Shown here: positions 31,862 to 36,107 of the stretch, one piece after another
Layout: each line of letters opens with the position of its first letter
How positions within the stretch are numbered: the stretch's first letter is position 1
Assembly: GCA_029264635.1 (NCBI GenBank)
Contig: JARIAA010000148.1
Coordinates: 1-36,712 of the forward strand
From: Psychrobacter sp.
Lineage (GTDB): Bacteria; Pseudomonadota; Gammaproteobacteria; Pseudomonadales; Moraxellaceae
Direction: 5' to 3'
DNA: 36,712 nt
Program-made: the position numbers and the translations under genes
Notes under the pieces: model-generated
The model's database searches: none
What the model was told of the DNA's origin: nothing
What the model saw: the letters and a program-made list of their open reading frames with translations, nothing else

Positions 31862-33898
31862 TTAGCTCTCTTTACTATTGTGATGAGGGTCTTGTTTGAC
31901 TGGAATCACGACCAAAAATCTTGTGTGTCCATTGATGGTATCGGTAATAATGTGGCCTTGATGAGCGGTAACGATTTGCGAGACAAGTGATAAACCCAGT
32001 CCCGATCCTTTATTTTTCTGCTGAAGACGTACAAATGGACTAAAGATCTCTTCACGCTTATCTTCTGGAATCCCTCTACCTTCATCAATCACTGCAAGCA
32101 CTGCATACTTTGGCAAAGGACGCTCATCCTCAGACTTAGATTTTTTTAGATGTTTTTTGAACAAGCTTTCTTTACGCGGTGCATTGTGAGCTTCGTTATA
32201 ATTTTCACTACCAATGTTAACGGTTTTGGCTTTTTTATTAGATTTATAATTAACAGATTTGGTAGTAGCGACAGACCGAATATCATTGGTTGATGATAGC
32301 TCAGCTGTCTCTGGCACGATATTCCAAATCACCCTTTTAATTTTATCAGTTAAATCAGAGGTCATCGTATTTTGGCTATTATGAAGTGTCTTATCAGTCA
32401 AATTAGGTGTGAGCGTATTAAATGTTCGGTGAGGACTATTGTCATTATCAGACAAATCTTGTGCGCCATCCTGTATATCGATACCTTTATTTTTTTCGTT
32501 ATGCTCTTTGTCATGATAATCGATCAGCGTTTCGCCATTTCGAAAAATAGCGGGGGCAGGTATCTCTTCTAGCGACTCTGCGAGTACGATACTATCGGAT
32601 TCCACCTCTTTTAAACGATCACCTTCATTAATTTTAAAAGGTTCTAGCATATCAAGATGCTTGTCATAATTTGAGCTATTGTAGTCAGCAAAGCTGCTAG
32701 ACACTAATGAATGTAGTAAATACTCAGGCACAGTATCAGCCTCTTCAAACGTTTGTACGCCATAGAGTAGTACGGTGATGGGTGGCACACCGTGTAGCAT
32801 AGCGTTGTTAAGTAGGTTACGAATGAGATGGGTCAGCATAGGCGGTTGACCATCAATCACAATATGTTCACCAATCAACGTCGCTTCTGGATAATGCTGG
32901 CGTTCTTGATTGACTAAGTCATAAAAATCTACGCGTTCCACTTGTTGCATAACATGACCTGCATCTAGACGACTGACCAGCAAGATACTCTCAACCAAGT
33001 CGTTAAGGCCTGACAAATCGCGATTAATTGCTTGCGCGCGTTTATCGAACTTTGCTTTGGTGTCAATCGGCATAGTGCCTGCCAGCATATCCATCATCTC
33101 AATTTGCAAGCGAATACGAGTAATGGGGGTGCGCAGTTCATGAGAGGCATGAGCTAATAATAGGTTATTGGCATCAATAAGATGCTCAATTTTTTGGGCA
33201 GCTTGGTTAAAACCTCGCGCGAGTAGAGCAATCTCATCGTTACCACGACTATTCACTCGGACAGTAAAATCGCCATCACCGAGCTGACTCATTTGCTGAC
33301 TCATATGATTAATGCGCCAAGTCATTGACCGGGCGATCCACCATAGTACACCTGCCATGATAAGGAGCAGGAGCATAGTGCCCGTAAATAAATTAAGCGC
33401 CGCCGAAAATGCAGGTTTTTTGGGTGTCAGACGCGATTCATACAGCAATGTGTAACCTGTACTACTATAGACTTGAGCTTGCTGAGTAGGGGGCATTTCT
33501 GAAAAAGAGGGGAAAACTAAATTCATCAAAGAGGGCGTTGCAGGTAGCTCTAATGGCAAGTCACTGTTATCGGTTTGCATGAGCAGACGCCCTTCATTGT
33601 CATATAAGCCCATTTTGGCTTTTAATGACTCATCAAAGATATCAAAGCTCTTTTTAACCACAGCCAACATAAAACGCGCTTGCAGGCGATTGTCCTTACT
33701 GATTGCCGTATTTAACTCGTGCAAAAAAGGATCAATCTGTCCTAAAATTTGAGTAGCAACCACCTCTGAGCGGATGCCAGCATCTTTATCATGGACAAGC
33801 TGTGTTAAAAGCACCATAGCTACTGCAAACAAAATAAGTGCCAGCATCACACTGGCAAATAACTTGGCAAATACGGAGCGAAAACCCAACTGCTGCAT
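31862..33898 (-). CDS. Sensor histidine kinase with HAMP, HisKA and interrupted HATPase_c domain
   Basis: H-box ASHELRTPITRIRLQIEMMD, N-box IRNLLNNAMLHG, G boxes VIDEGRGIP and KGSGLGLSLVSQIVTAHQGH; two TM segments. Confidence 0.93.
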   Translation of the reverse strand: MQQLGFRSVFAKLFASVMLALILFAVAMVLLTQLVHDKDAGIRSEVVATQILGQIDPFLHELNTAISKDNRLQARFMLAVVKKSFDIFDESLKAKMGLYDNEGRLLMQTDNSDLPLELPATPSLMNLVFPSFSEMPPTQQAQVYSSTGYTLLYESRLTPKKPAFSAALNLFTGTMLLLLIMAGVLWWIARSMTWRINHMSQQMSQLGDGDFTVRVNSRGNDEIALLARGFNQAAQKIEHLIDANNLLLAHASHELRTPITRIRLQIEMMDMLAGTMPIDTKAKFDKRAQAINRDLSGLNDLVESILLVSRLDAGHVMQQVERVDFYDLVNQERQHYPEATLIGEHIVIDGQPPMLTHLIRNLLNNAMLHGVPPITVLLYGVQTFEEADTVPEYLLHSLVSSSFADYNSSNYDKHLDMLEPFKINEGDRLKEVESDSIVLAESLEEIPAPAIFRNGETLIDYHDKEHNEKNKGIDIQDGAQDLSDNDNSPHRTFNTLTPNLTDKTLHNSQNTMTSDLTDKIKRVIWNIVPETAELSSTNDIRSVATTKSVNYKSNKKAKTVNIGSENYNEAHNAPRKESLFKKHLKKSKSEDERPLPKYAVLAVIDEGRGIPEDKREEIFSPFVRLQQKNKGSGLGLSLVSQIVTAHQGHIITDTINGHTRFLVVIPVKQDPHHNSKES

Positions 33899-34030: not shown

Positions 34031-34753
34031 TCAAACCTGATCGGTCGCAAATTGATAACCGACGCCGCGTACGGTAATAATACGTTTTGGCTGACGCGGG
34101 TTGTCTTCAATCAATGCCCGCAAACGTGAGATGTGGACGTCAATTGCGCGATCGATATTATCAGAGCTGTCATCATTTGGCATCGCCTGCCATAACTGCT
34201 CACGATTGAGTACTTTACCAGAATGTGTCGCAAAGTAGTGTAACAGCTGAAACTGATGGGTCGTTAAACGTACTGGCTGCTCATCGATTGTCACTTCGTG
34301 ACTGTCAGGAAACACACTCAAGCGCCCAAAAGTCAAACTGTCGGATTGACTGTCGGCTTGATTTGGCTGCTCATGACGGCGAATGACCGCGCGAATGCGG
34401 GCCAGCAATTCTCGAGGCTCAAAAGGTTTTGCGATATAGTCATCAGCACCCATCTCAAGACCCAGCACCCGATCGGTAGTATCACCTTTAGCCGTTAACA
34501 TGATAATAGGGACTTTATTGGTCATATTGTTTTTGTTGCCACGGATTTTTTGGCAAACCTGCATACCATCCATGTCAGGTAGCATCAAATCTAGGACAAC
34601 CAAATCGATATCGCGCTCTTTGGTATCTAAAATATCAAGACCTTCTTGCCCAAGACCAGCATGGTGCACATCATAGTAATTCATGGTCAAATAATCGCTG
34701 ATTAATTCAGCCAAATCTGGATCGTCTTCAATTAACAAAATCTGCTTACTCAT
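34031..34753 (-). CDS. OmpR-family response regulator
   Basis: Receiver ILLIEDDPDLAELISDYL, VLDLMLPDMDG, MLTAKGD, YIAKPFEPRELLARI; winged-helix DVHISRLRALIEDNPRQPKRIITVRGVGYQF; upstream of the kinase. Confidence 0.95.
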   Translation of the reverse strand: MSKQILLIEDDPDLAELISDYLTMNYYDVHHAGLGQEGLDILDTKERDIDLVVLDLMLPDMDGMQVCQKIRGNKNNMTNKVPIIMLTAKGDTTDRVLGLEMGADDYIAKPFEPRELLARIRAVIRRHEQPNQADSQSDSLTFGRLSVFPDSHEVTIDEQPVRLTTHQFQLLHYFATHSGKVLNREQLWQAMPNDDSSDNIDRAIDVHISRLRALIEDNPRQPKRIITVRGVGYQFATDQV

Positions 34754-35009: not shown

Positions 35010-36107
35010 TTATGAGATGACTACTTTTTTGCCAGCCGATGTCTTAGGTAGATCTGCTAAACAAATGAGGCTATCGTTACTGATGCCAGCGATAAGATAT
35101 TGCTCGGTACTAGGTTCGTATTTGATAACCTCTACTGGTTGCTGGGTCAGGCGCTGATCTTGTTTGATGATCCAAACGGTGGCATTTAAGGGCGTTAACG
35201 ACTGGTAAGGGGGACGTTTTAATACAGCTAGATCGACATTATGTAGCGCTTGTTCAGGAACAATCGTTCCCACTTCTATCTGTCCGTAATCGACACGTCC
35301 AGTGACTACCATATCAGGTTTGAGCGTATCGCGATTGGCTTCATCTCTGATGACATGGACATAGACAGACAATTCATTAGGCTTTTCACTGGCCTCTAGT
35401 TTACTTACTTGCCCTGCAAACTGTTCTGATAAACCTTTCGCCGTAAAGTTAACCGCTTGTCCAATGGAGAGCTTGGGCTTGGTTTTGATGGGCAATGTGG
35501 CAATAAAATTGAGATCCTTGTCATCACTTAAATGCAGAAGCGATGTGCGCTTGTCAACTTGCTGCCCTGTTTCGACGTATAAATTCTCTACACGTCCTGA
35601 AAAGCTAGACCGTACAATAATCGGTGGCCCTAAAGCCATCAATGATGCTTTGTCTTGATTGCTCTCAATCTGTTTATTAACGGTATTCTCCTGCATAGGT
35701 TTTCTATCTGTGCCGTCATCTGTTGTAGTGCTACCTTGCTCAGTAGATAATCGACGATTTATGATCAGTAAAGGTGCACCTTCTTCTACCCATTGACCTT
35801 CTGTTACTAGTACTTCTTGCACAATTGCATCAGTTATAGTAACAAAGCGCGACTGCCGAACAGGTTCAATGACACCTTGCAATCCAAGACTTGGCTGATA
35901 GCGCGATGGCTTGATGCTTAAAATATAATCTGCCGCCATATTTACACTATCGGTATCTGCAAAAATGGGCGAGTCTACTTGCTTATTATCTCCGCTAAGT
36001 TGGGAATTATTAGATGTTGAGGGAGGTTCACAAGCCATCATAAGTAAGATAGTTAATAATAAGGCACCATTCTTGCAGTACTTAGAAAGTCTTATACTCA
36101 TTGTCAT
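35010..36107 (-). CDS. Periplasmic adaptor (HlyD/RND membrane-fusion-like) lipoprotein
   Basis: Lipobox LLMMACEPP; barrel-sandwich-like halves FVTITDAIVQEVLVTEGQWVEEGAPLLIIN and IIVRSSFSGRVENLYVETGQQVDKRTSLLHLSD; LKPDMVVTGRVDYG. Confidence 0.78.
   Translation of the reverse strand: MTMSIRLSKYCKNGALLLTILLMMACEPPSTSNNSQLSGDNKQVDSPIFADTDSVNMAADYILSIKPSRYQPSLGLQGVIEPVRQSRFVTITDAIVQEVLVTEGQWVEEGAPLLIINRRLSTEQGSTTTDDGTDRKPMQENTVNKQIESNQDKASLMALGPPIIVRSSFSGRVENLYVETGQQVDKRTSLLHLSDDKDLNFIATLPIKTKPKLSIGQAVNFTAKGLSEQFAGQVSKLEASEKPNELSVYVHVIRDEANRDTLKPDMVVTGRVDYGQIEVGTIVPEQALHNVDLAVLKRPPYQSLTPLNATVWIIKQDQRLTQQPVEVIKYEPSTEQYLIAGISNDSLICLADLPKTSAGKKVVIS

Follow-up and report, generated by a model that had tools for sequence, protein, structure and literature searches.

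Kinase gene, neighboring genes, and position of the insertion

The window, i.e. the whole stretch of 36,712 nucleotides of Psychrobacter sp. DNA that was analyzed, contains a gene encoding a sensor histidine kinase of 678 residues (positions 31862 to 33898, minus strand, as for all features described below). The gene, assigned from its ORF, Pfam matches, and an AlphaFold2 model, is a single unbroken reading frame. Its product comprises a small periplasmic sensor between two transmembrane segments (an assignment made from the sequence), followed by HAMP, HisKA, and HATPase_c domains, the last containing a large insertion. The HAMP domain spans residues 186–237 (positions 33188 to 33343; PF00672, 3e-12) and the HisKA (DHp) domain residues 243–313 (positions 32960 to 33172; PF00512, 5.4e-12), with the phospho-accepting histidine H253 in the motif HASHELRTP. 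The N-box, NLLNNAMLHG (residues 361–370; positions 32789 to 32818), and the G1 box, DEGRG (residues 605–609; positions 32072 to 32086), are invariant at N361, N365, H369, and G370 and at D605, G607, and G609, respectively, in an alignment of 54 sequences. These boxes and Pfam scores above the gathering cut-offs identify a sensor histidine kinase of HAMP-HisKA-HATPase_c architecture. The top NCBIfam matches, RstB (121.7 bits for a cut-off of 478) and EnvZ (120.6 bits for a cut-off of 415), scored far below the values for membership in either equivalog. The kinase is of the EnvZ/RstB-like type and otherwise ordinary apart from the arm formed by its insertion.

The kinase gene adjoins, in nearly all loci, a gene for a presumed cognate response regulator of the OmpR/PhoB family (240 residues; positions 34031 to 34753), assigned by Pfam, NCBIfam, and synteny. 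The synteny comparison revealed 97–99% identity of this regulator across most Psychrobacter. The regulator is better conserved than the product of the neighboring metN gene (mostly about 89–94%), and identity of the kinase is about 70%. Upstream from the regulator gene, an RND/HlyD-type periplasmic adaptor lipoprotein (positions 35010 to 36107; Pfam, an NCBIfam match below cut-off, and synteny) is a neighbor kept in most loci. Identity of this lipoprotein is mostly just 43–56% between loci, and no RND pump gene lies beside it within the window.

The insertion was sized by the distance between N361 of the N-box and D605 of the G1 box, which is 244 residues. The same motif patterns were applied to 81 HisKA kinases, including this one, from the same genome, order, class, and phylum, a sample of high-scoring kinases rather than a census. 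The median distance was 36 residues (5–95% range of 30–49) and the maximum was that of the present kinase, the next value being 54. The original prediction of a roughly 200-residue insertion, at a place where kinases usually have a few tens of residues, was therefore borne out, with about 216 extra residues at positions 381–596 of the protein (32111 to 32758 in the window). Three further kinases of the same genome have long N-box-to-G1 hairpins of 73, 54, and 53 residues, the first being a hybrid kinase overlooked by the motif pattern of the baseline. Psychrobacter kinases in general may thus tend to grow at this hairpin.

In the AlphaFold2 model, which was built with 54 orthologs, the N-box helix (residues 352–369) is directly followed by a strand (374–381), and a second strand (598–605) leads into the G1 box. 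According to this model, the insertion is the tip of the β-hairpin connecting the N-box helix to the G1 box, and the protein is a kinase with a large insertion between the strand following the N-box and the strand preceding G1. The F-box (618–624) and the G2 box (631–635) flank an ATP lid of ordinary length, the whole region (residues 611–635; positions 31994 to 32068) being recognized from its sequence and the unbroken Pfam match. An insertion in the ATP lid was rejected on position since the additional residues precede G1 whereas the lid follows it; the proposed location in the ATP-lid-side half of the domain was therefore incorrect. The HATPase_c match covers residues 596–667 only (profile positions 36–110), its late start in the profile resulting from separation of the N-box half by the insertion. 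A Foldseek search against the PDB returned, among the matches listed, ordinary kinase folds, including CpxA, HK853, and ZraS. The alignments to these three span about 450 columns for targets of approximately 230 residues, an excess consistent with a normal kinase fold carrying a large excursion.

Conserved islands in an insertion predicted to be mostly disordered

Most of the insertion is predicted to be disordered, as originally proposed, with pLDDT values of 27–45 in the linkers and over most of its length. The short insertion of a Moraxella ortholog is likewise mostly of low confidence in a predicted structure (residues 399–423). The insertion had also been described as polar and of low complexity. 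It is indeed rich in N, D, S, T, K, and E, but its complexity is not uniformly low, four conserved islands, overlooked in the original prediction, being present. The GC content is about 36–37% at positions 32101 to 32550, versus 44–46% in the kinase core, and matches the N/K/D-rich linkers. An origin by tandem-repeat expansion was rejected, only two short repeats of 20–22 bp being present. Other candidates were also discarded: an overlapping or antisense gene (unsupported ORFs of at most 66 codons) and a known domain, the two sub-threshold Pfam matches (DUF3591 and PAZ_3) being treated as composition noise. No plasmid copy was matched at E ≤ 1e-30.

Island 1 (residues 381–412, EA..IPDYLL..SSF.DYN; positions 32663 to 32758) consists of short helices beside the hairpin, predicted with pLDDT values of about 80–92 for residues 381–400. 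Island 2 (residues 446–457, LPAPxIYKNGE; positions 32528 to 32563) is predicted to form short strands (pLDDT of 83 for residues 451–460). Island 3 (residues 503–530, DLTDxIKKVIWxAVP; positions 32309 to 32392) contains a predicted amphipathic helix (residues 511–525; pLDDT of about 56) with a hydrophobic moment of 0.69, a value reached by 1.5% of shuffled sequences. This helix carries Trp525, which is located near Lys and Arg residues and kept in 87% of 45 Psychrobacter rows. Island 4 (residues 574–597, PRKExLFxKHLKKxKxExxRPLPK; positions 32108 to 32179) corresponds to the basic patch that had been noticed at the end of the insertion. It is not significantly amphipathic, 10–37% of shuffles reaching its moment. 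The first part of island 1 is common to Moraxella, which also has a FLKRLTRPK-like counterpart of island 4. Islands 2 and 3 were only seen in the core Psychrobacter clade.

The dN/dS ratios, deduced from 123 close, non-independent pairs, were 0.052, 0.024, 0.089, and 0.013 for islands 1 to 4, respectively. The kinase core displayed ratios of 0.015 for the sensor, 0.007 for HAMP and DHp, and 0.021 and 0.008 for the two portions of the CA domain, and the linkers ratios of 0.365, 0.453, and 0.394. Thus, change in the islands is almost as slow as in the kinase core while the linkers drift, although the island ratios are partly circular, since conservation in an overlapping sequence set had been used to pick the islands. 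Five orthologs non-identical to the earlier sequences were used as a check set, three being 72–89% and two 98–99% identical to the nearest earlier sequence. Their mean identity to the kinase of the window was 59, 65, 43, and 74% for islands 1 to 4 and 15, 13, and 20% for the linkers. The length of the longer insertions varied (233 ± 36 residues) in comparison to that of the core (465 ± 5 residues). In all 88 insertions, the first half was acidic and the second half more positive, an agreement that may amount to one inherited property. These results indicate that the insertion is selectively maintained in parts.

Distribution and growth of the insertion

Orthologs of the kinase were detected in all 89 genomes of the same genus that were examined and in 80 named Psychrobacter and Moraxella contigs. 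None was seen elsewhere among 295 genomes of the order, in which only kinases about 24–33% identical were found, in agreement with the kinase belonging to these two genera. Among these best-matching kinases, those measured had 30–49 residues between the N-box and G1 boxes. Every intact, scorable Psychrobacter ortholog contained a homologous in-frame insertion, including in genomes assembled in one to three contigs. A frameshift or assembly artefact, which had been put forward as a refuting alternative, is accordingly extremely improbable, as are a chimeric assembly and an annotation error; nothing was found in favor of any of these, although the assembly of the window is fragmented and 84% complete. 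In a few genomes, the kinase gene is split, truncated, or interrupted by an internal stop, reflecting a pseudogene or an assembly error. We found no paper describing the insertion; a report on the cold shock response of M. catarrhalis names PhoR and NarX, and the kinase with the insertion is absent from it.

Alignment of the orthologs, the check suggested with the original prediction, revealed extensive variation in length, determined in two measurements with slightly different boundaries. The insertion comprised 46–104 residues in Moraxella, 110–205 in an early Psychrobacter clade, 156–198 in another early clade, that of P. pygoscelis and its relatives, and 147–300 in the core clade (62 rows, SH-aLRT of 98). 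The tree was obtained by a quick maximum-likelihood analysis of the kinase without its insertion, rooted on Moraxella, without bootstrap. From these sequence comparisons, growth of the arm seems to have proceeded in steps from Moraxella to early Psychrobacter and then to the core clade, the proximal helix and the distal basic element being older than islands 2 and 3. Within the core clade, the IYKNGE motif of island 2 is unmatched in one three-member clade and the Trp motif of island 3 is patchier, perhaps in part owing to the strict pattern used for detection.

Possible functions of the arm

Selected motifs on drifting disordered tethers give the insertion the appearance of a docking arm. Since four stretches are strongly preserved while the remainder drifts, the arm is probably a working element rather than junk. 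These four islands are the main argument for a function, and they lend weight to the possibility, raised at the outset, that the insertion binds a partner; the other suggested effect, a change in catalysis, gained no support. Our preferred explanation, which we hold tentatively, is a multivalent docking arm whose likeliest partner is the adjacent, nearly invariant OmpR-family regulator; both the binding and the identity of the partner are inferred. Island 1 would cap the hairpin and anchor the arm, islands 2 and 3 would fold upon binding, and the basic island 4 would bind an acidic surface. The arm could thereby raise the local concentration of the regulator and tune both phosphotransfer and phosphatase activity, leaving the ATP site untouched. 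The near invariance of the regulator is fitting for a conserved partner surface, although invariance alone does not imply an additional contact. Islands 2 and 3 are not essential for basic signaling, because they are lacking in early Psychrobacter and Moraxella and the Moraxella regulator is still 86–94% identical.

Islands 3 and 4 might instead lie on the inner membrane, on the acidic tethers of the arm itself, or on the DHp domain, the CA domain being held off or on by this form of cis autoregulation. The amphipathic character of island 3, the conservation from Moraxella to Psychrobacter of the basic island 4 with its two hydrophobic residues, and the acid-then-basic polarity of the insertions would all be accounted for. 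However, island 4 is short, its helical moment is no better than that of shuffled sequences, and AlphaFold2 confidence is low for both islands; we therefore regard such contacts as plausible but rather unlikely. The chances are smaller again that the loop grew mostly by neutral drift at an insertion-tolerant hairpin tip, the islands being leftovers that pack locally. The rapid evolution of the linkers, the free variation in length, and the modestly long hairpins of the three further kinases mentioned above are all expected from drift. Constraint on the islands nearly as strong as on the catalytic core is not, nor is the gain in one clade of two islands that were mostly kept. In addition, lengths climb through the clade instead of scattering around a small mean, and slippage-type tandem repeats are absent.

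Short conserved islands on disordered tethers are typical of binding sites for other proteins or nucleic acids, and the 12–32-residue islands of the arm, including the basic island 4, fit this general pattern. An adaptor, a chaperone, a protease, or DNA could accordingly be bound in place of the regulator. The only candidate offered by the conserved neighborhood is the adaptor lipoprotein, which is expected to be periplasmic, and we consider a third-party site of this kind improbable. Returning to the docking arm, a more specific proposal, about which we are doubtful, is that an internal disordered arm, grown motif by motif on the face of the CA domain away from ATP, gives the regulator or some other partner a second channel, for specificity or allostery, that does not depend on the DHp interface. 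The specificity of kinases for their regulators is usually ascribed to the DHp-receiver interface alone. The graded arm lengths across the whole genus would offer a natural series for the study of motifs outside this interface that may tune phosphotransfer and phosphatase activity.

EnvZ, RstB, and CpxA share the HAMP-HisKA-HATPase_c core of the kinase but have hairpins of ordinary length. The nearest functional parallel to the proposed docking arm is found in WalK. In the WalK kinases of Streptococcus mutans and S. aureus, which also act on a regulator of the OmpR/PhoB family, a disordered segment contains one conserved Trp required for binding of WalR via its DNA-binding domain, for phosphotransfer, and for phosphatase activity (PMC9087282). 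The WalK segment is an acidic C-terminal tail of 13–22 residues (W-acidic motif), in contrast to the Trp island of Psychrobacter, which is internal and in a basic setting, and the latter is thus not a tail of the WalK type. The CA domain of Caulobacter CckA, also bacterial, harbors an additional helix in the same linker, described as a short insert (cited in PMC10779265). Plant cytokinin receptors contain inserts of more than 50 residues with modeled helices; these inserts reportedly face away from the ATP pocket and are said to distinguish the receptors from bacterial kinases (PMC10779265). Judging from the order of the elements, this large extra segment appears to occupy the same hairpin. 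The plant receptors are hybrid kinases, unlike the bacterial protein described here, in which the insertion comprises 216 residues, is mostly disordered, and carries four islands. An origin of the Psychrobacter insertion independent of the plant one is likely, because the most similar kinases of the order are without it. The Psychrobacter family is a bacterial exception to the published split between plant and bacterial kinases at this hairpin site (PMC10779265).
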